Assembly (NCBI GenBank): GCA_026874595.1 | Contig: CM049308.1 | Span: 95,590,624-95,654,623 of the forward strand | Direction: 5' to 3' | DNA length: 64,000 nt | Origin: Sipunculus nudus | Lineage: Eukaryota; Annelida; Sipuncula; Golfingiida; Sipunculidae | In this document: in pieces, positions 2,205 to 60,768 of the stretch | Position numbering within the stretch: the stretch's first letter is position 1 | How the letters are laid out: every line of letters begins with the position of its first letter | Notes under the pieces: generated by a model | Databases searched by the model: none | Seen by the model: the letters and a program-made list of their open reading frames with translations, nothing else | Told to the model about the DNA's origin: nothing | Made by a program: the position numbers and the translations under genes

Positions 2205-4520
2205 CTACCACTTTGGAGATATAATAGGAACCCCTTCCTCTCCGAACACGTGGAGACAGTCATCTTTGTAACTGATATAAACAGGGCCTTGCTGCGTCAT
2301 GCTATTCACCTCGCACCTGGTTTGTTGTTGCCGCCATTCTTTGATCTTTGCTTTGAACTGCCACTGTGAAAACCACTCATCCGTGAACCGACACACGTAA
2401 GTAGTAAAACCAACCTCGCGTAGAAGCTGGTATGATCTATAGGCTGTTTGGACGGTGTTACCCATTCCATCCATTTCGAGACAGTTTTTAAGACACCTGT
2501 ACTTGATCTGAGGATAAAACCCCGCCCAGGCAATCCTCGACACCATCTCAGAGATCTGGGTTTTCATCCATGTCTGGACAGCTCTCAGATGGCGATTGCT
2601 GCAGTCCTCACAGGGTTCCTTGTTGATGACCGTCCACATCTCACACTGCCGACCCTCCACCTGTCTCCTGATCTGGTCAACGTCTCCTTGCTGTAGCTCG
2701 CTGCTCAAGTAGTTGTACAGATTGGCCTCGGCGTGGTAAATCTCCCCAGATGAACCTTTACAGCTTCTGCAAATGATTCCGAACACCTGACTCCAGCCAC
2801 ACATGATGGCCGTCTTCAGATAGACGGACTGCTTCCTCTCCAGAAACGGACTGCGGAAGGCACAACTCTTCAAGAGACTCTGGATCACTGAGGTTAAACG
2901 TAACGAGCGAATTAGCTGTCAAACATCACATACAGACATACACAGAGACTGGGCAAGTAGTGGAATTCAGTTATATTGTATGCTAATTTTTTGACAGTAT
3001 AAAGTTTTAGTGTTAGAATCAGGGAACATGGACAGATATGAGGCCGTTAACTCACCTCACGAGACGGCAGAAAAACACAAATTTTGAAGTTCATATAAGG
3101 TACGCAGACGCAACTAATTACACGTGACTGTCACTGACTGAATTAATGACTTTGTTAAGGTTACTGTTTTGACCTTTTTGGTTAGCACTCTTCAAACAGA
3201 AAATGTTATTTCTACTACATATGATAAATAGAAAGACAGTTCAGGTGGTTGTGATATTAATTATATAATAAATGATTAAGAAATAATAAGTAAAGCTGTG
3301 TTTCATTTGTGGTACTTACTATTTGGCGATGTTGTGCAGCCAGAGGGTTTGAGTTCGTCCGGCATGTCTTAAAGTACAAGTGAACGAAAACAGTAAATGT
3401 GAATGTATATAGACATATCTTTTCAAAGTTCTTTCTTTATATTGACAAATTATTCAGAACGCCTGATTTGTGAAATACCTGCGTTAAGTTTCAAATATTT
3501 AATTACATCAATTATTCCTATAATATTAAATCCATGTAACCTTATATTATGCACAATTTCACTTACATTGGTCATTGCACCTCTGGCCATCTGAAATTAA
3601 ATGATTTTATCATTGAAGAAATATGTTTAGCAGCGTGGAATATATACATAGGGCATATGTCTCATTGGCGAACATAGAGCGTCCTTCAGATTTAGACATA
3701 ACACACACACACACACTGTCTTAATAATTATATCAATTAAATATCTTTAAACATCTGCAAATTTCCTTTTTGTGCCAATTTAAAGTCTATATTATAGTTT
3801 TATATTAGTCTATATTAAAGCACTATTTTAATTTCAAAGACGAGGTTCATATCATAAAATAAGAAAAATCAATTAGATTTTATGAAGTCTTAGCTAATTT
3901 ATCCTCAGGACGTTAAATCTTGAATTATCCAAAAACAAGAAACCAAGTAACATTATGTTTATATAGTTCAGAAACTGGAAAAAAACTAAAAATGTCCAGA
4001 GTCGAAAAATGATTTTTCTGAATTAAAATTAGCTTATATTTGTTAAAACATAACTGAAGTTATACTTACAAACAGGCAGAATTCCTGCAACGAGAAAACA
4101 AGATTTAATTAATAGGCGATTCCTTGAAAGAATCACGAAAAAAGTAACATCACTGCTTTTCTGTTTTTAGACTATCATGAAGTTTATACTATTATACTGA
4201 CACATGATTGAAGTGGTTTAGACCACAGGTTTACTTGGAGTTTATTTCATTATAATATCGCCCGATACAAAAGGCATAATTTGGAGAACGTAATAGGATT
4301 TCCTTTGCGGTGCGGTTTATAAATGTTACTTACATTGACTTCCTGACATTACCCATATTCATAAAACAAGGACTTAAAAATCAGGAAATAGAACTAAAAT
4401 CCATCTCTCAAACAGCAGGGCGGTGTCCTCAGCTGGTACATGTTACCGTGATATATCACATAACAACGTGTACTTACCTGTGATCAGCGTGACGGCCAGC
4501 AGCACGGCCGGACACTCCAT
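2205..4520 (-). CDS. Secreted deaminase-like protein (HAE / EPCxxC), five exons
   Basis: Exons on the minus strand are 4478-4520, 4070-4084 (15 nt), 3567-3590 (24 nt), 3320-3367 (48 nt) and 2205-2887. They total 813 nt, or 270 residues plus a stop. All four donors read GTAAGT, all acceptors are AG, and every junction is phase 1; this regularity is the main evidence for the model. The first exon starts MECPAVLLAVTLITG, a hydrophobic signal peptide with likely cleavage near residue 21. After it come a cysteine-containing segment (RCNDQYMPDELKPSGC) and the large last exon. That exon shows H95-A96-E97 (YHAEANLYNYL) and, 38 residues on, E134-P-C136-E-D-C139 (INKEPCEDC). This is the spacing and residue set of the zinc-binding, proton-shuttling site of the cytidine/adenosine deaminase superfamily. 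Many further cysteines suggest disulfides outside the cell. The substrate cannot be read from sequence. Secreted AID/APOBEC-like deaminases and toxin-type deaminases are the known secreted relatives to consider. The gene model is strong; the enzymatic call rests on two motifs. Confidence 0.75.
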
Positions 4521-4850
4521 ATTGTGTGCTTCTTATAGTGACGCTGCAGTTCTACGTGAAAAATTGAAAATGTAACATTCCTATATACGCATTATTTTAA
4601 AATTAATTTTCAATGAAGTTGATATTTAGAATGTGAACATTTAGAAGTCTGATCCGGAATAAAATATGATTGTAACATGAATTGTATTTCTTGTGTAGTA
4701 AATTAATTGCATCCCTGATAGTTGGAGACTAATCTAAAAAGAAATTGTCTTATATATAATATATAAAATATACATTATATATGATAAAATATACATTATA
4801 TATGAAATATTTGAAGGTTATAAAATATAAACGTTATCTAACAAACAAAA

Positions 4851-11854: not shown

Positions 11855-14800
11855 TTAAATAACTTCATTCTTTCCAGTTGGTGTCGCCGTCACCGGCCCT
11901 GACACGCTGTAAGCTGGTGCCCATGCTCCTGCCTCTAGCGCTCCCTGGTGGCTGGCATTGCCAGTCGGGTTTGACGGTGCCGGGTTTGCGAACACCACAG
12001 TTGTAACATGGGGCTCTGTGAATATACAAGTCAGTAAAAATGTCAATGAATAGACTCTGATAAGGTTGCATTTTGAAAAAAAAAGAATTTCCTGTATACT
12101 TTACATCTACCTTTTATACACCTTTCATTTTTCACACACCTTTCAGCCGGCAATTAACCTTTTAGAACATATCATTCTTGCAATCTTTTCAACCGTTAAA
12201 ACGTGACATGTTACACCGACACTTTGGTCTACATGACCATATCATATCTACATATTGGTCTACACGATCATTTCACCTACAGATTGGTCTAGACGATCAT
12301 GTCACACCTACAGATTGGTCTACACGATCATATCACACCTACAGACTGGTTTACACGATCATATCACACCTACAGATTGGTCTTCACGATCATATCACAC
12401 CTACAGACTGGTTTACACGATCATATCACACCTACAGACTGGTTTACACGATCATGTCACACCTACAGACTGGTTTACACGATCATATCACACCTACAGA
12501 TTGGTCTACACGATCATATCACACCTACAGATTGGTCTACACGATCATATCACACCTACAGATTGGTCTACACGATCACATCACACCTACAGACTGGTTT
12601 ACACGATCATATCACACCTACAGATTGGTCTACACGATCATATCACACCTACAGATTGGTCTACACGATCATATCACACCTACAGACTGGTTTACACGAT
12701 CATATCACACCTACAGACTGGTCTTCACGATCATATCACACCTACAGACTGGTCTTCACGATCATATCACACCTACAGACTGGTTTACACGATCATATCA
12801 CACCTACAGATTGGTCTTCACGATCATATCACACCTACAGACTGGTTTACACGATCATATCACACCTACAGACTGGTTTACACGATCATGTCACACCTAC
12901 AGACTGGTTTACACGATCATATCACACCTACAGATTGGTCTACACGATCATATCACACCTACAGATTGGTCTACACGATCATATCACACCTACAGATTGG
13001 TCTACACGATCATATCACACCTACAGACTGGTGTACACGATCATATCACACCTACAGATTGGTCTACACGATCATATCACACCTACAGATTGGTCTACAC
13101 GATCATATCACACCTACAGACTGGTTTACACGATCATATCACACCTACAGACTAGTCTTCACGATCATATCACACCTACAGACTGGTTTACACGATCATA
13201 TCACACCTACAGACTGGTTTACACGATCATGTCACACCTACAGACTGGTTAACACGATCATATCACACCTACAGATTGGTCTACACGATCATATCACACC
13301 TACAGATTGGTCTACACGATCATATCACACCTACAGATTGGTCTACACGATCATATCACACCTACAGACTGGTTTACACGATCATATCACACCTACAGAT
13401 TGGTCTACACGATCATATCACACCTACAGATTGGTCTACACGATCATATCACACCTACAGACTGGTTTACACGATCATATCACACCTACAGACTGGTTTA
13501 CACGATCATATCACACCTAAAAACTGGTCTTCACGATCATATCACACCTACAGATTGGTCTACACGATCATATCACACCTACAGACTGGTCTTCACGATC
13601 ATATCACACCTACAGATTGGTCTTCACGATCATATCAGACCTACAGATTGGTCTACACGATCATATCACACCTACAGACTGGTTTACACGATCATATCAC
13701 ACCTACAGATTGGTCTACACGATCATATCACACCTACAGATTGGTCTACACGATCATATCACACCTACAGATTGGTCTACTCGATCATGTCACACCTACA
13801 GACTGGTCTTCATACAGACTGGTCTACACGATCATATCACACCTACAGACTGGTTTACACGATCATGTCACACCTACAGACTGGTTTACACGATCATATC
13901 ACACCTACAGTTTGGTCTTCACAATCATGTCACACCTACAGATTGGTTTACACGATCATGTCACACCTACAGATTGGTCTACACGATCATGTCATACCTA
14001 CAGATTGGTCTACACGATCATATCACACCTACAGATTGTTCTACACGATCATGTCACACCTACAGATTGGTCTTCACAATCATATCACACCTACAGATTG
14101 GTCTTCACGATCATATCACACCTACAGAGTGGTCTTCACGATCATATCACACCTACAGAGTGGTCTACACGATCATATCACACCTACAGACTGGTTTACA
14201 CGATCATGTCACACCTACAGACTGGTTTACACGATCATATCACACCTACAGATTGGTCTACACGATCATATCACACCTACAGATTGGTCTACACGATCAT
14301 ATCACACCTACAGATTAGTCTACACGATCATATCACACCTACAGACTGGTTTACACGATCATATCACACCTACAGATTGGTCTACACGATCATATCACAC
14401 CTACAGATTGGTCTACACGATCATATCACACCTACAGACTGGTTTACACGATCAATTACACACCTACAGACTGGTCTTCACGATCATATCACACCTACAG
14501 ACTGGTTTACACGATCATATCACACCTACAGACTGGTTTACACGATCATGTCACACCTACAGACTGGTTTACACGATCATATCACACCTACATATTGGTC
14601 TACACGATCATATCACACCTACAGATTGATCTACACGATCATATCACACCTACAGATTGGTCTACACGATAATATCACACCTACAGACTGGTTTACACGA
14701 TCATATCACACCTACAGATTGGTCTACACGATCATATCACACCTACAGATTGGTCTACACGATCATATCACACCTACAGACTGGTTTACACGATCATATC

Positions 14801-17800
14801 ACACCTACAGACTGGTTTACACGATCATATCACACCTACAAACCGGTCTTCACGATCATATCACACCTACAGATTGGTCTACACGATCATATCACACCTA
14901 CAGACTGGTCTTCACGATCATATCACACCTACGGATTGGTCTTCACGATCATATCAGACCTACAGATTGGTCTACACGATCATATCACACCTACAGACTG
15001 GTTTACACGATCATATCACACCTACAGATTGGTCTACACGATCATATCACACCTACAGATTGGTCTACACGATCATATCACACCTACAGATTGGTCTACA
15101 CGATCATGTCACACCTACAGACTGGTCTTCATACAGACTGGTCTACACGATCATATCACACCTACAGACTGGTTTACACGATCATGTCATACCTACAGAC
15201 TGGTTTACACGATCATATCACACCTACAGATTGGTCTACACAATCATGTCACACCTACAGATTGGTTTACACGATCATGTCACACCTACAGATTGGTCTA
15301 CACGATCATGTCACACCTACAGATTGGTCTACACGATCATATCACACCTACAGATTGTTCTACACGATCATGTCACACCTACAGATTGGTCATCACGATC
15401 ATATCACACCTACAGATTGGTCTTCCCGATCATATCACACCTACAGAGTGGTCTTCACGATCATATCACACCTACAGAGTGGTCTACACGATCATATCAC
15501 ACCTACAGACTGGTCTACACGATCATATCACACCTATAGACTGGGTTACAACGATCATATCACACCTACAGACTGGTTTACACGATCATGTCACACCTAC
15601 AGATTGGTCTACACGATCATGTCACACCTACAGACTGGTCTACACGATCATATCACACCTACAGATTGGTCTACACGATCATATCACACCTACAGACTGG
15701 TCTTCACGATCATATCACATCTACAGATTGGTCTTAACGATCATATCACACCTACAGATTGGTCTACACGATCATATCACACCTACAGATTGGTCTACAC
15801 GATCATATCACACCTACAGACTGGTTTACACGATCATATCACACCTACAGACTGGTCTTCACGATCATATCACACCTACAGATTGGTCTTCACGATCATA
15901 TCACACCTACAGATTGGTCTTCACGATCATATCACACCTACAGATTGGTCTACACGATCATATCACACCTACAGATTGGTCTACACGATCATTTCACACC
16001 TACAGATTGGTCTACACGATAATTTCACACCTACAGATTGGTCTACACGATCATTTCACACCTACAGATTGGTCTACACGATCATATCACACCTACAGAT
16101 TGGTCTACACGATCATATCACACCTACAGATTGGTCTACACGATCATATCACACCTACAGATTGGTCTACACGATCATATCACACCTACAGATTGGTCTA
16201 CACGATCATATCACACCTACAGATTGGTCTACACGATCATATCACACCTACAGATTGGTCTACACGATCATATCTCACCTACAGATTGGTCTACATAATC
16301 ATTTCATCTACCGATTGGTCTACACAATCATGTCACACCTACAGACTGGTCTACACAATCATATCACACCTACAGACTGGTCTACACGATCATATCACAC
16401 CTACGGATTGGTCTACACGATAATGTCTGACCTACAGATCATTGCTCAGTGAGATCAGGACACACACAGTGTCTATTTTCCGTGACAGCTGGACATCTTA
16501 CCTTCAACCATTCTGCGGTAGGGTTTCTTTCTACAACAGCAGTAACAGCAACAGCAACCACAGACGCTGATCAGCAGCAGCAGCCCTCCCCCAGCAGCTC
16601 CCAGGTGCCACCACTTGACACTGAGGATACAATTAATGATGTTACATAAACAAACATATAGCCAGTACATGCAAATTACTTCATTGATTTCGGGGCGTGT
16701 TTGTAGCCGAGACCAATTGCTCTAAAGGGTCGTTCATAACTATTAGGGGCGTCAATATAGGGGGATAGGGGTATTAACCTCCCCCCCCCCCCCCCCGCTA
16801 TTAAGCAAGGGGTGGGGGGGGGGGGGCTGTTTAATGTAATCACCCACCCCACTATTTAGAGAATAGTATTTTCATATTGCAAATGAAATATATTAATAAA
16901 TAGAATTATAGACTTTGTTTCCATTTATGATTTTACCAGTCTTTATACATTTTAATAACTTATTTTATAAATGTAATATATATGAAATGTGTCATACAGA
17001 TGATAAACATATATATAAATATATGTGTGTGTGTGTGTGCGCGTGCGACCCATCCCCCTATCCACCCTGGAAGATAAATTGTCGCCACTGACACTTATCC
17101 GTTTTTCCATTCCACACCCACACCCGCTTCTGTCAACCGTCATCCGTAAAATTGAAGTCAATAAACATACATGGTACACTCACACCTACCCGCTTCCGCA
17201 CCCGCTCTCACATCACCGTCCGCACAAATCAGTTTGAGACTGATTCACGACGGAAGCGAACGACGGGTGCGGAAGGGAAACTCATACAATCGGGGATATT
17301 CTGGAATGTGTCTTCCCTTTGGTAGGGAATGCCATAATCGGTTGAATGCCGATAAGTTTCTCTGTAAACTTGCAAGTGTATGTTTTATAACATTTATTTT
17401 CAATTTATATAGGCCAGAACAACTAAGATTCCTCACATTAAACATCAAAGTGCAATGCCCACAAACACCGAACACTATAGTCAGCTCACAAACACCGCAC
17501 ACTATAGTCAGCTCACAAACACCGCACACGAAGGTCTGCTCACAAACACCGCACACGAAGGTCTGCTCACAAACACCGCACACGAAGGTCTGCTCACAAA
17601 CACCGCACACGAAGGTCTGCTCACAAACACCGCATACTGTACTTTGCTCACAAACAACGCACACTATATCTGCTCACAAACACCGCACACTATAGTCTGC
17701 TCGGAAACACTGCACACTATAGCCTGTTCAAAAACACCGCACACTATAGTCTGTTCACAAACACCGCACACTATAGTCTGTTCATAAACACTACACACTA

Positions 17801-20560
17801 TAGTGTGTTCTTAAAACACCGCACACTATAGTCTGTTCCACTGTAGGGCGCCCATTAAAATTGGTTAATATTTTATTTAACTAAAATCCAGAAAGTAAGC
17901 TGAATGGGGGCACGAGGCATCGGCCTATTCAACCAGAACGAAACCAAATAAATACCTGGAAAAATATTTGAGTGATTCATTTAACTCAATCTCTGTAAAA
18001 ACAGTCTTTTACAAAAACTTAACATATTGATGAAGGCCAAGGTCACTGGTTACATGCTCAAACAACTAAATTTAGAAGTTGGTGATCGGTTGTTGAGTGT
18101 CATAAATATTCTACAAAATGTAATTGTCACGGTCTCAGTGAGGCTGCCAATCCATGACAGAGGCCATGTCAATTTGCCAACAGATTCAGAAGAAACAAAA
18201 GGTTGCAAAATATAAATTTAAGTTTTTGATATGCACCATGTGGCCCTTATTAACTCCTGGTACTTGCCAATATAGCTTCAGATATTCTTGAATTTATTCT
18301 TTAGTATTAAATTTTATATGATTTCAGAATCCCTATAACAACAGACGCACCAAAAATTGGCGATCCTGAAACCTGCTTCACAGAGATTGGCGTTGCAATA
18401 GTCGTTATTACAAGCGCATGCTCGGGCGTCCATCTTGTCCACTCCACCCTCACTCAGGATCTTGGCCAGGAATGAGGCGGCTTTCAAAACCCCTCTAGTG
18501 GTGCGGTCGTTGGTTGTGCAGCCATCAGCAGACTTGGGGAAGCAGTCACGGAATAAAAGCCGGGTCGTCACCTTGCCAGCCACTGAGGACGGAGAGCGAA
18601 AACGTGAATTCAAATCAGTGTCAATAACGTTATAGACTAAATGTATCTGGTACCAGACAACTCTTCAATAGAGAAAAAAAAGAAAAGTCAATGGTTTGGT
18701 TGGTTCTATAACCATTATGCCAGATGGCATTAAAAACCATTTTCTGCATGTTAAGCATAATCTAAAACATATCTCACGGTATTGGTCAAATATTTTAACA
18801 TGTGGCTAATCATAGACATGGTATCCAAATGCTTGTTTGGGACTGCTTGGAGGGGTAAATTTTATTCTTTCGGAAAAGGATTATGGGAAAATGAGATACT
18901 AAATTCCACAATTTTCTTGGCCTTGTTTGGTTGTAGAAAGGACAGTCTTTCAAGTAAAAAAATCTCAAAATTTATATTTAAAGCAGTGCGAAAGAGGGCC
19001 AGACTAGGACATTTATAGATGTTACACAAGAAAAGTAAATACAGTCAAGTGACCTAAAGTTCCAAGTCAGGAATATTTTGTTTACTTAACGTTTCTTATA
19101 CAACCACAATCTACAATCAGTTTCACAACGTTATTGTAAGCTCATATCACTAATTTGTAAGCCTCTGTTTATCCTGTATGTTAAAATATTAACAGTTGGC
19201 TGCTTACGTGGAACATTGAAGGTGACAGACCCAGCATAATAGCCACATGACTCGTTCTCGCTGCACTCCTTTGTCTCCGACGGATTAAACTCACAAGTTC
19301 CGTCTCTCTTTCCTTCGAAGAGGTTTTTGATGAAAGAATTGTCCGAGTTGATCTCGGCGTCAGCGCAGGTGTAACACTCAAGGGCGTCCCCTATAAATAG
19401 ACACTCGTAATAATATACACATCGCCTAACAAATAAGCAAACAGAATTAAAACCTTTTATTAAAAAGATCCCCTGAAACTTAGACAGTTTAGGAGGCGTA
19501 TTTTATTTTGTTTCAAAGTGGGTGGCCATTGAAATTTCTCAGTCTTTTCATAAACTGGCAGATATCGAGTCATCTACATAGTGAAAGGAAGGTATTGGAG
19601 CCCTCCCCAGAAGATGTGTTTAACTAGGCGGGAAAGGTTATGATTACCACTTCTGGACTTCTCTGAAACTAAACTACATTAACTGTGATGATAGACCATG
19701 GGCCAGGAAATAAAAACCTCCACCCCCCCCCCCCCCCTTGTGAATTTTTGCGACCATCTAATTTTCTTCCTGTATACATGTATTTTTCCTTTTTCAGGTG
19801 TTTAAAACATATAAAAGTGACAAACACCCTAAAATCAAATTTTACAGCGTACTAATTTTTTAAATATTATTCTGGGGCGAATTTACTACAAGATACTTAC
19901 TATATCGTTGAACTTGCATCATTTTGTCATCAATGGAATTGGAAGAATATTAACTGCATAATGATTTACAATTTTATCAGAAAAAGTAATTCTATTTCCT
20001 TTTTGTGCCCCTGCCTCTTTTTTTCTAAAAGGAAAGACATTTTTGCAGACGTTCTTTGTTCCACACGCACATTTGTAAGATTTAGGCACATCATTTGATC
20101 AGAACTTGTTTAATACCTTCATTTTACATGCCTGCCCTCTGAATTTAATATGCAGACATGTTTTTGTCTCACCCATTACGTTCCCACACGTGTCCTACCC
20201 GTAACGTGTCCCACACGTAAACTCTAAGAAAAAATGTTCTTGATGGTACTTTTAAGAACCGACCTGGTTATAACATGTATCACCCGTGGCATGACAAAGA
20301 ATATTGCTTTCTTAATATTTAATAAGAATTAACAACTCATTTCATATTAACTTTAATGGCATTTTCTTTCACAACTTTCAAAGCTAAAACATTTCTCTTA
20401 TAATGTGTTTTTAGGCCTTTTGAAGTTTTGATGACAGATGTCTTAATAAATCGGCTGATAAAGCCATATGACACTGAAGGTTACACCCAAGGCAGGAATG
20501 TTCATAATGGTTACAATAACGTTGTGGATGCCAAAAAGAAAATATTAAATGGAGAGAAAT

Positions 20561-20608
<48 letters not shown>

Positions 20609-23600
20609 CATAAAAAAGCCTTGACATGTGCACGATCAAAAAAGCATCCCTCAAATAGGCACTGGATGAACTGCCCAATAGTGATCACAGAAAAATAAAC
20701 ACCGATAAAGCTTCTGTAGCAAAGTACCAGACTATTAGATGGAAGACTAATAAATGGGAGAATGGCTACGGTAAAGATACACAGAAACTCCATTATAAAC
20801 TAGATATTTCTTGGCACCGCAGGTGCCATAGTATCCCCAGACAATTAATCCCCCCCCCCCCCTTTAAGAATAGGCCCCCCCCATCTTCAGCAACAATTAA
20901 TATCAGACCACACTCATAGAAAAGGTCACTGTCATAGAAAAGGTCATGACCAGAATTTCAATATTCATCATCCCATAACCCATGTCTATGTATATGCATA
21001 ATATAAAAGAAATCTGTCCATTAGTTTTTTACTTATAATGCTCACAGTACTGTTAAGTGGCAATGATTGGGTATTAAACGGCACGAAAACAAGTAAAAGA
21101 ATAACAGGTGGCGCTATCAGTTTCTGGTACTTGACAACACTATCCAAGATATTCGGTCAAGTAGATTTTTGGACCAATTCATGCATCCCTTATTGAGACA
21201 TTAATGATTTTGTGTGATTTTCACCATATATGGCAATATTCAAGGTCACGGCCACTCTCATAGGAAAGGTCATGACCCCAATTTAAATAAACATCATCCC
21301 ATAACCCATATCTATGTACATGCATAATATGAAAGAAATCTGTCTATTAGTTTTTGACTTATAATGCTCACAGTACTGTTAAGTGGCAATGATGGGGGTA
21401 TTAAACGGCACGATAACAAGTAAAAGAATAACAGGTGGTGCCACCTGTTTCCGGTACATGACAATACTATCCAAGATCTTCGGTCAAATTGATTTTTGGA
21501 CCAATCCATGCATCCCTTATTGAGACATTAATGATTTTGTGTGATTTTCACCATATATGGCAATATTCAAGGTCACGGCCACTCTCATAAGAAAAGTCAT
21601 GACCCCAATTTAAATAAACATCATCCCATAACCCATATCTATGTATATGCATAATATGAAAGAAATCTGTCTATTAGTTTTTGACTTATAATGCTCACAG
21701 TACTGTTAAGTGGCAATGATGGGGGTATTAAACGGCACGATAACAAGTAAAAGAATAACAGGTGGCGCCACCAGTTTCTGGAACAGGACAACCCGATCCA
21801 TGATCTTCCATCAACTTAATTTTGGGATCAATCCATGCAAGATTTCTTGAGATATTAAAAAAATTGTGTGATTTTCCCCAAAATTGGACCTATTCAAGGT
21901 CAAGGACACTCTCCTAGTCAAGGTCATGACCTCATTTTAAATAGGCGTCGTCCTGTCACCCATATCTATACATATACCAAGTTTGGTAATGATCCGTGAA
22001 ATATTTTTTGAGTTATCGCGCCAGCAAGATTAATATTCGGCGATGGCGGTGGCGGCGGCGGGACCGGTATGAAAACATAGTATCCCCCGACTTTGTCTGG
22101 GGATACAATGAATTAAAGGAAATGTTGTGGAATATATTTACTTGTTTATCACTAATTAACCTCAAATTGTATGTTCTAAACTTCGAAATACTTAAAATGA
22201 GGTATGTAGTATTGAGGTATTAATATACACTGTATACCTGTTAACCGTAATAAACAGTCAATGGTATCTATATATTAATAGCGTAAGGCGATTTTTGTAA
22301 TTTTCCGTATCTTCTCTGATACCACCGTACGGATTGCCGTGATTTTCGACATACACATGCTCCGGGTTTGTCCGAAGAGATTCCACCCACTTTATTTGCA
22401 ATATTTGCGTATTACTTGCATAATTAATAATTTTAATATTTGCTCCCCCGCGGGCGCCTATTTTCTTTGTGTCTCCGGGCCCGGTAACACAATTGCCATA
22501 GAGTGTATAATGCCGGGACAGAGTTTTACTCCGGGGGCCCTATCTAGGGTTTTCGTACAATTTGCGGTTACCGGCCCGAAATAATCGCCACCGGCAATCC
22601 CTTCTCAAAAGGGGGATCTTTGAAAGAATTGTTTTGCAGGCCTTCCTGCGACGGGGGGTCGCACGAGGACTCCTACCTGCGACCCCCCACACATGACCTG
22701 ATATGCTTGAGTGCACATCAACCGGGTCGCGGAATCCGTGATGGTTAAACAGCGCACACGCGGTCGCACGAAGTCCAGGGCTTTGCATGCGATTGAGATG
22801 CTTGACAAATATTCACAAACATATGCATATGTAGACCTACTATGTAACAGATGAAAAGAAAATGTTAACCAAATTCACGTCGTGGTTGGTACAGTGTGAT
22901 GTGTACACGTGTGGATTTGTAAAAGTTGTAAACATTATGACTTAAAATGTTTTGATTATCGAGATTTTTTCTCATTACTACATTTACGAATGTATAATTC
23001 CCGTAAAAAATGTAGATTTAATACGATTATACTGTTATTTGTCTCTTTTATATCCATATGACATCTCATTCAATAATGTTTATGTAATACTCTTTATTTT
23101 TAAAGACTTATATTCTTTCATTCAGTATGTATGCTTATTGCGTATAAGCCATGGCCATAATTGTTATTATTTTCACAAATAAAACTGGTATTTTTGCATT
23201 CTTTTCTTAGTTATATTCCATGGGCGGTTTCTTTTGTGTGTAATTGTGATATTGTTGATCAGTTTCTCATGTCTCATGGTACATGTGTTGGTACTATTTG
23301 TTAAAGACCCCGACCACATGTTAGGCACTTGCTTTGGGCGAAGGTGTGCGACTGTACGCTGTTCCGAAATATGTTCCGAACGCTGTTCCAAAAGATTTTT
23401 ATCCACAACACCATACATATAATGGATATATATATTAAAAGCGTAACGCGATTTTTGTGATTTTCCGTATCTCCGGTGGATTTCCGATACCACCGTATGG
23501 ATTGTTGTGTTCGCCCCAAACCGTGCGTATAGCACGGGTGGTTGCTAGTATATATGAGATGGTCTACTGAATTTCATAATTAATTGCACAATTTAAATTA

Positions 23601-31945: not shown

Positions 31946-31962
31946 CACAATTAAAGTACCCC

Positions 31963-33691
31963 TAGCTACACAGGAGCCTGGGGGAGACATCGCTACACAG
32001 GAGCCTGGGGGAGACCTCGCTACACAGGAGCCCGGGGGAGACCTGGCTACACAGAAGCCCGGGGAGACCTCGCTACACAGGAGCCTGGGGAAGACCTCGC
32101 TACACAGAAGCCCGGGGAGACCTGGCTACACTGGAGCCTGGGGGAGACCTCGCTACACAGGAGCCCGGGGAAGACCTGGCTACACAAGAGCCCGGGGAAG
32201 ACCTGGCTACACAAGAGCCCGGGGGAGACCTGGCTACACAGGAGCCCGGGGAAGACCTAGCTACACAGGAGCCCGGGGGAGACCTGGCTACACAGGAGCA
32301 CGGGGAAGACCTAGCTACACAGGAGCCCGGGGGAGACCTGGCTACACAGGAGCCCGGGGAAGACCTGGCTACACAGGAGCCCGGGGAAGACCTCGCTACA
32401 CAGGAGCCCGGGGGAGACCTCGCTACACAGGAGCCCGGGGGAGACCTAGCTACACAGGAGCCCGGGGGAGACCTCGCTACACAGGAGCACGGGGAAGACC
32501 TAGCTACACAGGAGCCCGGGGGAGACCTCGCTACACACGAGCCTGGGGGAGACCTCGCTACACAGGAGCCCAGGGAAGACCTGGCTACACAGGAGCCCGG
32601 GGAAGACCTGGCTACACAAGAGCCCGGGGGAGACCTGGCTACACAGGAGCCTGGGGAAGACCTCGCTACACAGGAGCCCGGGGAAGACCTCGCTACACAA
32701 GTGCATGGGGAAGACCTAGTTACACAGGAGCCCGGGGGAGACCTCGCTACACAGGAGCCTGGGGGAGACCTCGCTACACAGGAGCACTGGGAAGACCTAG
32801 CTACACAGGAGCACTGGGAAGACCTGGCTACATAAGAGCCCGGGGAAGACCTGGCTACACAGGAGCCCGGGGGAGACCTGGCTACACAGGAGCCCGGGGA
32901 AGACCTCGCTACACAGGAGCCTGGGGCAGACCTCGCTACACAGAAGCTCGGGGAGACCTGGCTACACAGGAGCCTGGGGGAGACCTCGCTACACAGGAGC
33001 CCGGGGTAGACCTGGCTACACAAGAGCCCGGGGAAGACCTGGCTAAACAAGAGCCTGGGGGAGACCTGGCTACACAGGAGCCTGGGAAAGACCTCGCTAC
33101 ACAGGAGCCCGGGGAAGACCTGGCTACACAAGAGCACGGGGAAGACCTAGCTACACAGGAGCCCGGGGGAGACCTCGCTACACAGGAGCCCGGGGAAGAC
33201 TTGGCTACACAACAGCCCGGGGCAGACCTGGCTACACAGGAGCCCGGGGAAGACCTGGCTACACAGGAGCCCGGGGAAGACCAGGCTACACAAGAGCACG
33301 GGGAAGACCTAGCTACACAAGAGCCCGGGGAAGACCTCGCTACACAGGAGCCCGGGGGAGACCTCGCTACACAGGAGCCCGGGGAAGACCTCGCTACACA
33401 GGAGCCCGGGGAAGACCTCGCTACACAGGAGCCCGGGGAAGACCTCGCTACACAGAAGCCCGGGGAAGACCTCGCTACACAGGAGCCCGGGGGAGACCTC
33501 GCTACACAGGAGCCCAGGGAAGACCTCGCTACACATGTGCCCGGGGAAGACCTGGCTACACAAGAGCACGGGGAAGACCTAGCTACACAGGAGCCCGGGG
33601 GAGACCTCGCTACAGAGGAGCCTGGGGGAGACCTCGCTACACAGGAGCCCGGGGAAGACCTGGCTACACAAGAGCCCGGGGGAGACCTCGA
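31963..33691. repeat. GC-rich minisatellite, 27 bp unit, about 64 copies
   Basis: The unit is GAAGACCTGGCTACACAGGA plus GCCCGGG, with alternates GGGAGACCTCGC and CTAGC. It is strongly GC-rich inside AT-rich sequence. The 27 bp period keeps frames open on both strands. On the plus strand it reads DLATQEPGE in one phase and GRPGYTGAR in another, and the two phases change over inside the array through small indels. The frame runs without a stop into the gypsy gag end at 33692. It has no ATG of its own near 31929, where the frame opens on a non-ATG codon, so translation is doubtful. Confidence 0.97.
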
Positions 33692-36600
33692 TTCGTCTTA
33701 CTCTAGACCGAAACACCTAGCAGCCAGCTGTGTGTTTACCAATGTAGATGCTAAAATTAAGTCACAGATAATTCAGATGGATCTTACTTTGTCAGCTTTG
33801 TTGAAATATGGCCGCATTATCGAGGTCTTTAAAGTCCGTTTCAAAGCTATGGAGGAAAAGATTGACCCCAAACCAGTAGTGAATAAAGTTACATGTAAAC
33901 CTCAGAAATCAGCTCCCACTCTAAGACACAATAAACAGTCTTCAAATGTTTCATCACAAGGCGCAAATAAAACCTGTTACAATTCGTGTCCTCATCCGCG
34001 TGAATCTCGCTGTCCAGCCTATGGTAAGACATGTCGTATATATAGGAAGCACAGTCATTTTGACATTGTTTGTCGCGCACGGGGTTCAACGCAAGCACCA
34101 AAAGGGCCTCAGGCCAAACAAAATACAAAAGCAGTGCGCTCATTAACCGCTGAGGAATATGAGGCTGACGACAGGTATCATATCAGCGGATCAGACCCAA
34201 AGAGTGCTTAAAACTTTGTTATATTCATAAATGATGTGGAGACCAACACTGAGGTTGACACGGGTGCTGAAGTTTCGATCATGTCAGAAAGTGCATACAG
34301 AGAGCTATGTCACCCTAAAGCCAAACCAGTTTTACAGAACTCTACCACCAAGTTTCATACACTGGTGAACTAATTCAACCTAAGGGGGTAGCACAGGTGA
34401 CTGTAAATGATGGTAACCAGCAGTAAGCGCTGCTGCTCATTCCTGTTCCAGGTTCAGGTCCCTTTGTGTTTGGTCGAGACTGGCTACAGAAAATCAGGCT
34501 AAATTGGTCCCAAATAGTGAATGCACTTAAATCTGACAGTTCCTTGCTAGACAGCATTTTACAGCCATTTGAGCAAGTTTTCCGTGATGAACTTGGCTGT
34601 TTACACACGACTACAGTATCGCTGCATGTACCAGAAGGCACACCACCCATGTTTTACAAGTCAAGACCCATTCCTTTCTCGCTCAAACAGAAGGTGTTAG
34701 CAGAGATTGAGCGTCTGGAAGCAGCTGGTGTTTTACGTCCTATGAATGGGTGACATCTTTATCACAAAAGTCGCAAAAGGAGACCATGCATACCAGCAAC
34801 TTGTGTTAGATGAGAAATCTCGTTGTTTTACAACCATCAATACTCCGAAAGGCCTGTACGAGTGCACACGTCTCCCATATGGCGTAAGGGCAGCGCCAGG
34901 ATTTTTCCAGAGTCGCTTCTTCAGGGCATTCCAAGTACAGCTATATATTTGGATGATATTCTTGTTGGTGGAGCCACCTGGGAGGACTATGTTACTAATT
35001 TCAAAGCAGTGTTGAAAAGTTTACAATACCATGGTCTTCGTTTGAAGCAGGAGAAATGTGCTTTTCTACAACAGAGTGTGATCTACCTGGGTCATGAAAT
35101 TGATGTTGCAGGCATTCATCCCTCACCAGACAAGTGTCAGGAAATTACAAAGGCTCCAACTCCAGGGAATTTAACAGAGTTGAGGAGTTTTCTCGGCATG
35201 CTGATTTACTATAACAAGTTCTTGCACAGGGCAAGTGCAGTTTTGAAACCATTATATGATTTGTTACACCAGGACAGCACCTGGCAGTGGGATAAAGAGC
35301 AAGAAGACGCGTTTCAACAGAGTAAGAAACTGTTAGAGTTCTGCATTATTGATGTATTATGATCCTAGGCTACCATTAGTATTCGAATGTGACGCTTTGC
35401 CTTATGGGTTAGGTGAAGTCTTGTCCCATGAGGTATAGCGTGTGCGTCCTGCACGCTAGCAGCAGCTGAAAAGAAGTATGCTCAACTATAGAAAGAGGGA
35501 CTGGGCATCATTTTTGGATTTAAAAGGTTCCATAAATACCTGTTTGGACGATGTTTTACATTCATAACTGAACACAAGCCCCTACTTGGATTGTTTAAAG
35601 GAAATAGACAAACCTCTAAGATGGCGTCAGCTCGAGGTGGGGATTGACCCTTGGCAGTTATAACTATAAGCTTATCTGCAGATGCATCGAGCCGACTGCC
35701 GAGTACACAGACTCCTACTGAGATTGCAGACACACCACAAGTGGTTCTGGCAATGGACTTTGTTGATTAGACTCCTGTGACCTCAATTGAAATCGCAAAG
35801 GAAACAGCGCGTGACCCACTGCTCAGCAGTGTTTCTGATTATGAACTGCGTCTGTGGTCACCTGAATCTCAAGATTCTTCATTAAGGTGTTTCTTTGATA
35901 AGACACAAGACACATAATCTCATGTCTGCAACCTCCTTGGTCGAAGCAAATTGCCTGTAATGGGGTTCAAGAATTGTAATTCCTTCCAGGAACAGAAAAA
36001 CTATGCTTGAGGAATTACACTCCACGCATCCAGGAATTGTTAAAATGAAACTACTTAGTCGTTCCTACTTCTGGTCGCCTCACCTGGACGCTGACGTTGA
36101 AACAACAGTACATCATTGCCAGGCATGTCAAGAGCAGGGGGCATAACCTGCGGCCGCGCTTTTGCATCTATGGATATGCAAAAAAAAACCGTGGGAAAGA
36201 ATTCGTGTGGATTACGCTGCACCCGCGGAAGGCAAGATGATTTTGGTGATAATCGACGCTGGTACCAAATTCATTGATGCACACGTGCTGATAAAACGTC
36301 AACTTAAAGTGCCACGATCAAGAAGCTTCGGCACACATTTTCCGTTCAAGAAATTCCTTTATTTCTGACAATGGTACACCGTTTACATCTGCCAAATTGG
36401 AAGACTTATGTACCTAAAATGGCATTAAACATAGACTTGTTCCGCCTTACCATCATGCCAGTAACGGCATGGCAGAACGGGCAGTCCACACTATTAAAAA
36501 CGGAATTCGCAAGTCAAAGGATGGTTCTTTGGAAACAAGGTTGTACAGGTTTCTTTTGTCCTACCACATTACACGACAGTCAACAACCGGTATGGCTCCT

Positions 36601-54492: not shown

Positions 54493-57400
54493 GTATCCCC
54501 GGACAAAGTCGGGGGATACTATGTTTTCATACTGGTCCCGCCGCTGCCGCATATAAATCTTGTTGGCGCGATAACTCAAAAAATATTTCAAGGATCTTTA
54601 CTAAACTTGCTATATGTATAGATATGGGTTAGAGGACGATGCCTATTTAAAATGAGGTCATGACCTTGACTAGAAGAGTGTCCTTGACCTTGAATAGGTC
54701 CAATTTTGGGGAAAATCACACAAATTCTTAAATATCTCAAGAAATCTTGCATGGATTGATCCCAAAATCAAGTTGATGGAAGATCATGGATAGGGTTGTC
54801 ATGTTCCAGAAACAGGTGGCGCCACCTATTATTCTTTACTTGTTTTCGTGCCGTTTAATACCCCCGAAATTGCTACTTGACAGTACTGTGAGCATTTTAA
54901 GTAAAAAAATAATGGACAGATTTCTTTTATATTATGCATATACATAGATATGGGTTACGGGATGATGTTTATTTAAATTAGGGTCATGACCTTTAGTATG
55001 AGAGTGTCCTTGACCTTGAATAGGTCCAATTTTGGGGAAAATCACACAAATTCTTAAATATCTCAAGAAATCTTGCATGGATTGATCCCAAAATCAAGTT
55101 GATGGAAGATCATGGATAGGGTTGTCATGTTCCCGAAACAGGTGGCGCCACCTATTATTCTTTACTTGTTTTCGTGCCGTTTAATACCCCCGAAATTGCT
55201 ACTTGACAGTACTGTGAGCATTTTAAGTCAAAAACTAATGGACAGATTTCTTTCATATTATGCATATACATAGATATGGGTTATGGGATGATGTTTTTTT
55301 AAATTGGGGACATGACCTTTTCTATTAGAGTGGCCTTGACCTTGAAAATTGCCATATATGGTGAAAATTACACAAAATCATAAATATCTCAATAAGGGAT
55401 GCATGGATTGGTCCAAAAATCAACTTGATCGAAGATCTTGAATAGTATTGTCATGTACCAGAAACAGGTGGTGCCACCTGTTATTCTTTCACATGTTTTC
55501 GTGCCGTTTAATACCCCATCATTGCCACTTAACAGTTCTGTGAGCATTATAAGTCAAAAACTAATGGACAGATTTCTTTCATATTATGCATATACATAGA
55601 TATGGGTTATGGGATGATGTTTATTTAAATTGGGGTCATGACCTTTCCTATTAGAGTGGTCTTGACCTTGAATATTGCCATATATGGTGAAAATTACACA
55701 AAATCATTAATATCTCAATAAGGGATGCATAGATTGGTTCAAAAATCAACTAGACCGAAGATCTTGGATAGTAATGTCATGAACCACAAACTGGTGGCAC
55801 CACCTGTTATTCTTTTACTTGTTTTCTTGCCATTTAATACCCCCATCATTGCCACTTAAACAGTACTGTGAGCATTATAAGTCAAAAACTATCAGACAGA
55901 TTTCTTTCATTGTAAGCATATACATAGACATGGGTTATGGGATGATGTATATATAAATTGGGGTCATGACCTTTCCTATTAGAGTGGCCTTGACCTTAAA
56001 TATTGCCATATATGGTGAAAATTACACAAAATCATTAATATGTCAATAAGGGATGCATGGATTGGTCCAAAAATCAACTTGATCGAAGATCTTGAATAGT
56101 ATTGTCATGTACCAGAAACAGGTGGTGCCACCTGTTATTCTTTCACATGTTTTCGTGCCGTTTAATACCCCATCATTGCCACTTAACAGTTCTGTGAGCA
56201 TTATAAGTCAAAAACTAATGGACAGATTTCTTTCATATTATGCATATACATAGATATGGGTTATGGGATGATGTTTATTTAAATTGGGGTCATGACCTTT
56301 CCTATTAGAGTGGTCTTGACCTTGAATATTGCCATATATGGTGAAAATTACACAAAATCATTAATATCTCAATAAGGGATGCATAGATTGGTTCAAAAAT
56401 CAACTAGACCGAAGATCTTGGATAGTAATGTCATGAACCACAAACTGGTGGCACCACCTGTTATTCTTTTACTTGTTTTCTTGCCATTTAATACCCCCAT
56501 CATTGCCACTTAAACAGTACTGTGAGCATTATAAGTCAAAAACTATCAGACAGATTTCTTTCATTGTAAGCATATACATAGACATGGGTTATGGGATGAT
56601 GTATATATAAATTGGGGTCATGACCTTTCCTATTAGAGTGGCCTTGACCTTAAATATTGCCATATATGGTGAAAATTACACAAAATCATTAATATGTCAA
56701 TAAGGGATGCATGGATTGGTCCAAAAATCAACTTGATCGAAGATCTTGGATAGTATTGTCATGTACCGGAAACAGGTGGTGCCACCTGTTATTCTTTTAC
56801 ATGTTTTCATGCCGTTTAATACCCAATCATTGCCACCTAACAGTTCTGTGAGCATTATAAGTCAAAAACTAATGGACAGATTTCTTTCATATTATGCATA
56901 TACATAGATATGGGTTATGGGATGATGTTTATTTAAATTGGGGACATGACCTTTTCTATTAGAGTGGCCTTGACCTTGAAAATTGTCATATATGGTGAAA
57001 ATTACACAAAATCATAAATATCTCAATAAGGGATGCATGGATTGGTCCAAAAATCAACTTGATCGAAGATCTTGAATAGTATTGTCATGTACCAGAAACA
57101 GGTGGTGCCACCTGTTATTCTTTCACATGTTTTCGTGCCGTTTAATACCCAATCATTGCCACTTAACAGTTCTGTGAGCATTATAAGTCAAAAACTAACG
57201 GACAGATTTCTTTCATATTATGCATATACATAGATATGGGTTATAGGATGATGTTTATTTAAATTGGGGTCATGACCTTTCCTATTAGAGTGGTCTTGAC
57301 CTTGAATATTGCCATATATGGTGAAAATTACACAAAATCATTAATATCTCAATAAGGGATGCATAGATTGGTTCAAAAATCAACTAGACCGAAGATCTTG

Positions 57401-60400
57401 GATAGTAATGTCATGAACCATAAACAGGTGGCACCACCTGTTATTCTTTTACTTGTTTTCTTGCCATTTAATACCCCCATCATTGCCACTTAAACAGTAC
57501 TGTGAGCATTATAAGTCAAAAACTATCAGACAGATTTCTTTCATTGTAAGCATATACATAGACATGGGTTATGGGATGATGTATATATAAATTGGGGTCA
57601 TGACCTTTCCTATAAGAGTGGCCTTGACCTTAAATATTGCCATATATGGTGAAAATTACACAAAATCATTAATATCTCAATAAGGGATGCATGGATTGGT
57701 CCAAAAATCAACTTGATCGAAGATCTTGGATAGTATTGTCATGTACCGGAAACAGGTGGTGCCACCTGTTATTCTTTTACATGTTTTCATGCCGTTTAAT
57801 ACCCAATCATTGCCACCTAACAGTTCTGTGAGCATTATAAGTCAAAAACTAATGGACAGATTTCTTTCATATTATGCATATACATAGATATGGGTTATGG
57901 GATGATGTTTATTTAAATTGGGGACATGACCTTTCCTATTAGAGTGGCCTTGACCTTGAAAATTGCCATATATGGTGAAAATTACACAAAATCATGAATA
58001 TCTCAATAAGGGATGCATGGATTGGTCCAAAAATCAACTTGATCGAAGATCTTGAATAGTATTGTCATGTACCAGAAACAGGTGGTGCCACCTGTTATTC
58101 TTTCACATGTTTTCGTGCCGTTTAATACCCAATCATTGCCACTTAACAGTTCTGTGAGCATTATAAGTCAAAAACTAACGGACAGATTTCTTTCATATTA
58201 TGCATATACATAGATATGGGTTATGGGATGATGTTTATTTAAATTGGGGTCATGACCTTTCCTATTAGAGTGGTCTTGACCTTGAATATTGCCATATATG
58301 GTGAAAATTACACAAAATCATTAATATCTCAATAAGGGATGCATAGATTGGTTCAAAAATCAACTAGACCGAAGATCTTAGATAGTAATGTCATGAACCA
58401 TAAACAGGTGGCACCACCTGTTATTCTTTTACTTGTTTTCTTGCCATTTAATACCCCCATCATTGCCATGAAGAAGAAGGTGTTACCAATGCTGAATCAT
58501 ACAGGACAGACAGACTCAGCAAGAGGTTGCTTGACCATTTTGGATCCTCTATCCAGATTTTACCACAGAGGGGAAAGGCGAGTCTGGTTTGTTCTTCTGA
58601 AATCAAAGTGGGTGAAATGTGTGCACTTGTTACAAGTTTGCAGCAACAGTTAGCTGAATCAGAGTTAAAGATTGAATCTGACTGTAGTCCGAGCCAAAAG
58701 TGGTATACCCTCATTGAGCAGCTACAGGTTGCTGCGGTCAAGACCTCAGCCCTCTGCGCTCCTTAAGCATGTTCTCTGAGCCAACAGTCTCAGTGCCACG
58801 CCAAGCCAAGCAAGGAGCCACAGAGGCCACCCCCATCCATCCCGAGCTGGTGACTTTTCAGAAAGCTACAGACCACACTTAAACAGTACTGTGAGCATTA
58901 TAAGTCAAAAACTATCAGACAGATTTCTTTCATTGTAAGCATATACATAGACATGGGTTATGGGATGATGTATATATAAATTGGGGTCATGACCTTTCCT
59001 ATAAGAGTGGCCTTGACCTTAAATATTGCCATATATGGTGAAAATTACACAAAATCATTAATATCTCAATAAGGGATGCATGGATTGGTCCAAAAATCAA
59101 CTTGATCGAAGATCTTGGATAGTATTGTCATGTACCGGAAACAGGTGGTGCCACCTGTTATTCTTTTACATGTTTTCATGCCGTTTAATACCCAATCATT
59201 GCCACCTAACAGTTCTGTGAGCATTATAAGTCAAAAACTAATGGACAGATTTCTTTCATATTATGCATATACATAGATATGGGTTATGGGATGATGTTTA
59301 TTTAAATTGGGGACATGACCTTTCCTATTAGAGTGGCCTTGACCTTGAAAATTGCCATATATGGTGAAAATTACACAAAATCATGAATATCTCAATAAGG
59401 GATGCATGGATTGGTCCAAAAATCAACTTGATCGAAGATCTTGAATAGTATTGTCATGTACCAGAAACAGGTGGTGCCACCTGTTATTCTTTCACATGTT
59501 TTCGTGCCGTTTAATACCCAATCATTGCCACTTAACAGTTCTGTGAGCATTATAAGTCAAAAACTAATGGACAGATTTCTTTCATATTATGCATATACAT
59601 AGATATGGGTTATGGGATGATGTTTATTTAAATTGGGGTCATGACCTTTCCTATTAGAGTGGTCTTGACCTTGAATATTGCCATATATGGTGAAAATTAC
59701 ACAAAATCATTAATATCTCAATAAGGGATGCATAGATTGGTTCAAAAATCAACTAGACCGAAGATCTTGGATAGTAATGTCATGAACCATAAACAGGTGG
59801 CACCACCTGTTATTCTTTTACTTGTTTTCTTGCCATTTAATACCCCCATCATTGCCACTTAAACAGTACTGTGAGCATTATAAGTCAAAAACTATCAGAC
59901 AGATTTCTTTCATTGTAAGCATATACATAGACATGGGTTATGGGATGATGTATATATAAATTGGGGTCATGACCTTTCCTATAAGAGTGGCCTTGACCTT
60001 AAATATTGCCATATATGGTGAAAATTACACAAAATCATTAATATCTCAATAAGGGATGCATGGATTGGTCCAAAAATCAACTTGATCGAAGATCTTGGAT
60101 AGTATTGTCATGTACCGGAAACAGGTGGTGCCACCTGTTATTCTTTTACATGTTTTCATGCCGTTTAATACCCAATCATTGCCACCTAACAGTTCTGTGA
60201 GCATTATAAGTCAAAAACTAATGGACAGATTTCTTTCATATTATGCATATACATAGATATGGGTTATGGGATGATGTTTATTTAAATTGGGGACATGACC
60301 TTTCCTATTAGAGTGGCCTTGACCTTGAAAATTGCCATATATGGTGAAAATTACACAAAATCATGAATATCTCAATAAGGGATGCATGGATTGGTCCAAA

Positions 60401-60768
60401 AATCAACTTGATCGAAGATCTTGAATAGTATTGTCATGTACCAGAAACAGGTGGTGCCACCTGTTATTCTTTCACATGTTTTCGTGCCGTTTAATACCCC
60501 ATCATTGCCACTTAACAGTTCTGTGAGCATTATAAGTCAAAAACTAATGGACAGATTTCTTTCAAATTATGCATATACATAGATATGGGTTATGGGATGA
60601 TGTTTATTTAAATTGGGGTCATGACCTTTTCTATGAGAGTGACCTTTTCTATGAGTGTGGTCTGATATTAATTGTTGCTGAAGATTGGGGGCCTATTCTT
60701 AAGGGGGGGGGGGGGGGGTTTAATTGTCTGGGGATACTATGGCACCTGTGGTGCCAAGAAATGTCTAG
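54493..60768 (+). mobile_element. Long Helentron/Helitron-like element with a 17-unit internal tandem array
   Basis: The left end is GTATCCCCGGAC-AAA-GTCGGGGGATAC, a hairpin with one mismatch. The right end is GTCTGGGGATAC, then hairpin GGCACC-TGT-GGTGCC (60741 to 60755), nine bases, and CTAG at 60765 to 60768 followed by T. These are the same ends as the element at 20800 to 22106, inverted. Between them lie 17 units of about 328 bp plus a partial one. Two D-type units come first, then A and B, then repeated A-B-C triplets of about 985 bp, so the array has a higher-order period. Each unit carries GGTGG(C/T)(G/A)CCACC, GGTCATGACC and TGACCTTGA. A G run of about 17 is near the right end. No replicase is encoded. 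The copy has grown roughly five-fold against its 3-unit relative. Confidence 0.8.
58469..58875 (+). pseudogene. 400 bp gene fragment inserted into one tandem unit
   Basis: Bases 58472 to 58871 match 62497 to 62896 without gaps and with about three substitutions by eye. The fragment carries the part of the CIICQ-family protein that reads RLSKRLLDHFGSSIQI to ESDCSPSQKWYTLIEQL, plus sequence past its stop. It interrupts a B-type unit between ATTGCCA and CTTAAACAG, with only a few unmatched bases at the joins and no duplication seen. No other unit has it, so it arrived after the array formed or was not spread with it. It has no promoter or start of its own and is taken as non-functional. Confidence 0.9.

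Follow-up and report, generated by a model that had tools for sequence, protein, structure and literature searches.

SNADs, the secreted AID/APOBEC-like deaminases, are described in the available text of one account as occurring in poikilothermic vertebrates (SNAD1), in ray-finned fish (SNAD2-3) and, in the case of SNAD4, only in sponges (PMC11004436), and SNADs in protochordates are also mentioned in the accessible parts of another paper, which contains the proposal that these proteins are delivered to infected cells or extracellular parasites (PMC8201067). According to the former account, nothing is known about the biochemistry of secreted AID/APOBEC-like enzymes, and in its available text, which names SNADs in vertebrates and sponges, the words "invertebrate" and "mollus" are absent (PMC11004436). 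For Aplysia, three APOBEC3-like genes are listed in the part of a further source at hand (PMC9334734).

The locus considered here lies in a stretch of 64,000 nucleotides from the sipunculan worm Sipunculus nudus, referred to below as the window. The abstract of the founding paper (Krishnan et al. 2018) is said to mention lophotrochozoan AID/APOBEC-like genes, and for that reason secreted forms outside vertebrates, sponges and protochordates may already be in print. As judged from sequence and profile comparison, the product of the gene in the window (Table 1) is most probably a secreted AID/APOBEC-superfamily deaminase, rich in cysteine and dependent on zinc, a divergent SNAD-like protein that nevertheless represents a distinct branch.

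Table 1. The window gene, the sites of its product and related copies elsewhere in the genome; positions without a prefix are those of the window.
Feature	Position	Strand	Remarks
Exon 1, start codon and signal-peptide core (MECPAVLLAVTLITG)	4478-4520	minus	phase-1 donor GTAAGT
Exon 2, 15 bp, closes the signal peptide; least certain of the five	4070-4084	minus	no homologue found
Exon 3, 24 bp (GQRCNDQ)	3567-3590	minus	homologue ATQRCEDM in neighbouring copy, by eye
Exon 4, 48 bp (MPDELKPSGCTTSPN)	3320-3367	minus	homologue in neighbouring copy, splice sites kept
Exon 5, whole putative deaminase domain and stop codon (2205-2207)	2205-2887	minus	relatives in same genome, best E 1.1e-35
HAE, residues 95-97; putative zinc histidine and proton-shuttle glutamate	2727-2735	minus	kept in 10/10 open members
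PCEDC with C136 and C139; putative zinc cysteines	2601-2615	minus	PCx2-3C in 10/10 open members
CRFTDEWF, aligned with AID TFKDYFYCW; predicted last core strand and helix	2370-2393	minus	HHalign alignments
Span of C209, C235 and C254, C-terminal cysteines common to group A	2256-2393	minus	alignments
Single copy of array unit (exon 1, donor and intron start)	4414-4541	minus	repeated about 28 times at C3:95580456-95583073
Frame-broken gene copy	C3:95588374-95589086	opposite strand	about 1.5 kb outside window
Tandem array, 28.1 units of 93 bp (L011)	C3:95580456-95583073	same strand as C3 copy	outside window, about 5 kb upstream of that copy
Three tandem relatives on C4	C4:39949017-39957286, 40001642-40007361, 40016707-40024989	same-strand exon sets	leader, trypsin-like domain, middle piece, deaminase exon

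A gene family in the same genome

Searches of the worm's own 1.43-Gb assembly identified at least ten open last exons, the window gene included, a count that is a lower bound, and these fall into two groups. The window gene, three C4 members and a C16 member make up group A; group B has four C2 members and one on C16. The other matches to the window exon in its own genome have E values from 1e-35 to 2.5e-6, and onward links from them reach group B. In a profile alignment with HHalign the two groups match with a score of 167.6 (E 4.4e-25) against a maximum of 19.9 in 60 shuffles, and by this comparison they are homologous. A tree of the ten members likewise splits A from B (support 100/99); the program cautioned about several long branches and possibly false joins. 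The three C4 duplicates were shown to be under purifying selection, with dN/dS values of 0.32-0.33 for their three pairs; the remaining 17 of the 20 pairs are saturated and give no ratio.

The family also includes broken copies, two or three on C3 and one on C16. A segmental duplication of 99% identity (C16:46803048-46814808 and 46830000-46841732), the ends of which are limited by the stretch compared, surrounds the C16 copy; the broken copy is the second duplicate, in which about 270 bp of the deaminase core are deleted. No candidate emerged when the sequence upstream of the C16 copy was scanned for a leader.

The HAE motif and a PCx2-3C motif are present in all ten open last exons, which bears out the zinc-site reading of the first-pass annotation, made from the letters of the window; H95, C136 and C139 of the window protein lie where that annotation had placed them. 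That annotation had also remarked on the many cysteines of the product, which number 15 in total. At the C-terminal end, C209, C235 and C254 are invariant in the five rows of group A, and C209 and C254 also in an alignment of eight rows. The predicted signal peptide, the cysteine content of the presumed mature chain (14 residues) and the calculated pI of 8.35 are all compatible with an extracellular enzyme. A single-sequence AlphaFold2 model of the window protein reached a pLDDT of 42.6, which is too low to interpret.

Placement among the deaminases

Taken alone, the window protein matches no deaminase in Pfam (two rows, E 0.13 and 0.16). Sequence searches of the PDB gave none either (best E 0.2), and rows there for influenza HA2 and PadR (E 0.44 or more) were taken as chance. 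A set of 5.8 billion proteins, searched with one sequence and two alignments, returned 156, 456 and 2007 candidates, none of them at E<=1. When all ten members were scanned against Pfam, no deaminase model was matched above its curated cut-off and six of the ten matched none. L006 of group A matches dCMP_cyt_deam_1 (E 0.0033) over a stretch containing HAE and PCIFC. In group B, L040 matches SNAD4 (E 9.4e-4, 19.7 bits, cut-off 27) and APOBEC_N (1.8e-3, 18.8 bits, cut-off 25), L042 matches SNAD4 (2.2e-3, 18.5 bits, cut-off 27), NAD1 (2.6e-3), APOBEC_N (7.2e-3) and SNAD1 (0.039), and L039 matches SNAD1 (E 0.014) and five weaker AID/APOBEC families, with SNAD4 at 14.8 bits (cut-off 27). Hence every Pfam row of these three of the five group B members is an AID/APOBEC family, below cut-off, and for the other two, L041 and L043, no AID/APOBEC model was matched. 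The SNAD4 model (PF18750) put no member over its cut-off of 27 bits, and the SNAD1 model (PF18744) gave no match in the genome at E<=1. No family thus reaches a curated cut-off, and the new branch suggested in the first-pass annotation appears likely.

Aligned with AID and two A3G domains in HHalign, the ten-member profile scored 31.0 (E 8e-4), the best of 60 shuffles reaching 19.3. In its alignment with AID both parts of the zinc site (H-x-E and PC..C) and, further downstream, the F-x-D-x-W strand-helix are in register. Group B alone scored 30.7 (shuffle maximum 20.6), and group A alone 16.5, under its best shuffle of 22.0. A profile search had been named in the earlier annotation as a check on the deaminase reading, and this reading is supported by the match of the ten-member profile to AID, within limits: the window protein and group A alone are not significant against AID/APOBEC. 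The window protein is therefore placed through its strong link to group B, since group A alone does not decide.

Comparison with single sequences bears on a different possibility, namely that the product is a secreted deaminase-fold protein of another branch, kin to toxin-type or nucleoside/tRNA deaminases, rather than specifically an AID/APOBEC protein. The ten-member profile scored 31.7 with AID, 26.1 and 23.7 with the A3G domains, 14.6 with TadA and 11.6 with CDA; for group B the corresponding values were 21.3 (AID), 22.7 and 17.4 (A3G), 12.5 (TadA) and 12.5 (CDA), and for group A 19.1, 14.9 and 18.8, 21.1 and 12.6. The higher score of group A with TadA than with AID would suit such an origin, as would the fact that the sole deaminase match in group A is the general dCMP_cyt_deam_1 model and that every AID/APOBEC match stays below cut-off. 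However, the alignment of group A with TadA is out of register, the PCVMC of TadA being set on the stretch before HAE, and the TadA and CDA scores of the ten-member profile fall inside the AID/A3G shuffle range, far from its AID score. The alignment of group A with AID is in register, over only 21 columns and the last strand only. Pfam contains toxin-deaminase models, none of which appeared among the rows for the ten members scanned. On balance we regard membership of another deaminase branch as unlikely and favour the AID/APOBEC superfamily.

Relatives on C4 and a probable trypsin-like fusion

Upstream of each C4 deaminase exon, on the same strand, lies an exon with a leader peptide and then a trypsin-like domain, and two further conserved exons stand between this exon and the deaminase exon. 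A hydrophobic leader, recognised by eye, opens all three of these relatives. The Pfam Trypsin model scores 23.8 bits in copy a (cut-off 20.6) and 19.5 bits, below the cut-off, in copy b, and the trypsin-like exon has weak matches in the PDB (coagulation factor XI and complement C2, E 0.18 or more). The usual trypsin motif with the catalytic histidine is TAAHC; all three C4 copies carry TALDC in its place, and by this motif the catalytic histidine is replaced in their trypsin-like domains. Neither in the window nor in the examined regions of C3 and C16 did the trypsin-like sequence match anything at E<=1.

The C4 junctions can be reconciled by hand, with one GC donor needed in copy a; copies b and c use an acceptor different from that of copy a, by which they join the deaminase exon in phase 2. 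We infer that the leader, trypsin-like, middle and deaminase exons form one transcript, and in the C4 relatives a leader and a trypsin-like domain devoid of the catalytic histidine seem to precede the deaminase. The middle piece looks thioredoxin-like by eye only, with CRYC in two copies; Pfam returned rows at chance level for it (DUF5772 0.083, DUF7114 0.22, SNAD2 0.17) and the PDB a clostripain-family protein (E 0.024). A weak match of the middle piece was also seen on C16 (E 0.014).

That the trypsin-like domains have themselves lost the catalytic histidine raises the question whether the deaminase domains have gone the same way, so that the window gene would encode a secreted protein with the deaminase fold kept and catalysis lost, in a binding or structural role. 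The strong divergence of the family and its several broken copies agree with such a loss. Against it, the H, the E and both C are retained in all ten open members, despite the fact that the seven aligned relatives share 19-33% identity with the window protein, and the chance that catalysis has been lost is, in our estimate, distinctly small.

Exon structure and the neighbouring copy

Joined together, the five exons of the window gene give a product of 270 residues with GT-AG introns and all junctions in phase (phase 1), the last exon being open across 227 codons. All four donors used by the gene model are GTAAGT, and the middle exons of 15, 24 and 48 bp are each a multiple of three. On the minus strand GTAAGT occurs ten times in the 64 kb, and all five occurrences below 8 kb sit within 3319-4477, the one at 4333 being left unused by the model. 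As a chance control, the 5' region was put through 500 dinucleotide shuffles, which contained 0.67 such donors on average and 4 at most, compared with five in the real sequence. Some exon chain could be built in 62 of the 500; 8 gave a chain that includes a signal peptide, and no shuffle gave one that also has four or more introns. The signal-peptide exon chain of the window gene is beyond chance. Alternative N-termini of the gene are possible, because the real 5' region permits 17 chains, 12 of them with a signal peptide. Among its 9-mers the product is most hydrophobic at AVLLAVTLI, which starts at residue 5 and has a mean Kyte-Doolittle value of 3.0; past residue 40 no 9-mer exceeds 1.7. 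With the exon chain and this hydrophobic 9-mer near the N-terminus, the signal peptide proposed from the window alone is borne out, as is the proposed 270-residue gene of five exons in matching phase, which the shuffle control and homologous exons support as well.

These homologous exons come from the neighbouring copy on C3, which is 40-48% identical and has its frame broken after HAE. Exon 4 has a homologue there whose two splice sites are intact (MPPELDNSGCTISIN compared with MPDELKPSGCTTSPN); exon 3 also has one, and the beginning of exon 5 is retained in phase 1, the assignment of exon 3 and of the phases having been made by eye. The units of the tandem array are homologous to exon 1 and its donor, and most have a start codon, a hydrophobic core and a donor in a largely open frame; the donor is exactly GTAAGT in 20 units, and in a few the start codon is missing or the donor altered. 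From its place and strand we infer that the array belongs to the neighbouring copy, and sequence homology to this copy supports exons 1, 3, 4 and 5 of the window gene; no homologue of exon 2 was found in the copy or the array. That the window gene is a decaying pseudogene with N-terminal exons assembled by chance is highly improbable, since the frame-broken state of the other C3 copies, the unsupported 15-bp exon 2 and a locus rich in satellites are outweighed by a long open last exon, by the phase agreement at each junction and by the homologues of exons 1, 3 and 4, with splice sites, in a copy about 40-48% identical.

Other features of the window

Elsewhere the window carries a 31-bp satellite of 136 copies (12213-16439) with long ORFs in several frames, a 27-bp satellite of 64 copies (31961-33690) that is open in several frames on both strands, and tandem arrays of 326-327-bp units (20927-21969, 54618-58468 and 58876-60646), the consensus units of which look by eye like a single family that occurs on both strands. 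A fragment of a retroelement reverse transcriptase lies at 34814-35362 (Pfam RVT_1, E 1.6e-8). Two cysteine-rich ORFs on the minus strand (18314-18664 and 19131-19502) resemble, by eye, pieces of Ly6/uPAR-type secreted proteins and gave no Pfam match at E<=0.01. The window contains no tRNAs.

Proposed role and comparison with known systems

As a secreted deaminase of the AID/APOBEC superfamily, the window protein would enter the secretory pathway, where C209, C235, C254 and other cysteines would form disulfides. H95, C136 and C139 would bind zinc and E97 would shuttle protons, and the putative enzyme may act on single-stranded nucleic acid, deaminating its cytosines in the extracellular space or in vesicles. 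Its most likely role would lie in humoral or mucosal defence, as a factor directed at viruses or microbes, because relatives are placed in defence in the available parts of the literature (PMC5956068, PMC8201067). In some relatives, the trypsin-like domain without its catalytic histidine might serve as a targeting or binding module.

A wider proposal, which we put forward tentatively and hold to be rather doubtful, is that the family constitutes an undescribed, two-branched, multi-gene clade of secreted AID/APOBEC-like enzymes, one branch of which is fused to a secreted pseudo-trypsin and possibly to a thioredoxin-like piece, so that an extracellular nucleic-acid mutator would be delivered by a protease-derived binding module in humoral immunity. 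No secreted deaminase-protease fusion appears in the titles and abstract openings among the matches listed. A multi-gene family that keeps its zinc site intact and matches no SNAD model over cut-off would help to test whether mutators act outside cells and to date the split of the secreted and classical branches. Should transcripts confirm the C4 fusion, it would hint at how the enzyme is delivered or at what it targets.

Among the described systems, TadA/ADAT and CDA deaminases have the zinc-site motif in common with the window protein but differ in profile, the ten-member scores of 14.6 and 11.6 lying in the shuffle range and the group A score of 21.1 with TadA stemming from an alignment out of register. 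The AIDL genes of sea urchin and brachiopod (Liu et al. 2018, PMC5956068) are, like the genes described here, invertebrate and AID/APOBEC-like, and they have an immune setting; in contrast, neither "secret" nor "signal peptide" occurs in the available text of that paper, and the likeness is one of description. With NAD1 and APOBEC_N, the classical AID/APOBEC proteins, the family has the profile of the core in common, from HAE through PC..C to the F-x-D-x-W stretch, whereas identity in the HHalign alignments is about 20% and the classical proteins are intracellular according to the text at hand (PMC11004436). From the SNADs the family is set apart by the lack of a match over cut-off, by the probable trypsin-like fusion in the C4 copies and by a five-exon layout with tiny phase-1 exons, and from SNAD1 in particular by the PCEDC of the window protein in place of the CVxxC described in the available part of the same source (PMC11004436). 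Yet it is the SNADs that the window gene resembles in its predicted signal peptide, in its H-x-E and C-x-x-C zinc site, in its occurrence as a gene family, in the weak profile matches of group B to SNAD4 and SNAD1, and perhaps in a C-terminal cysteine cluster, since the three cysteines present in all five group A rows, two of them invariant in eight rows, would correspond in number to the three-cysteine cluster of SNADs.
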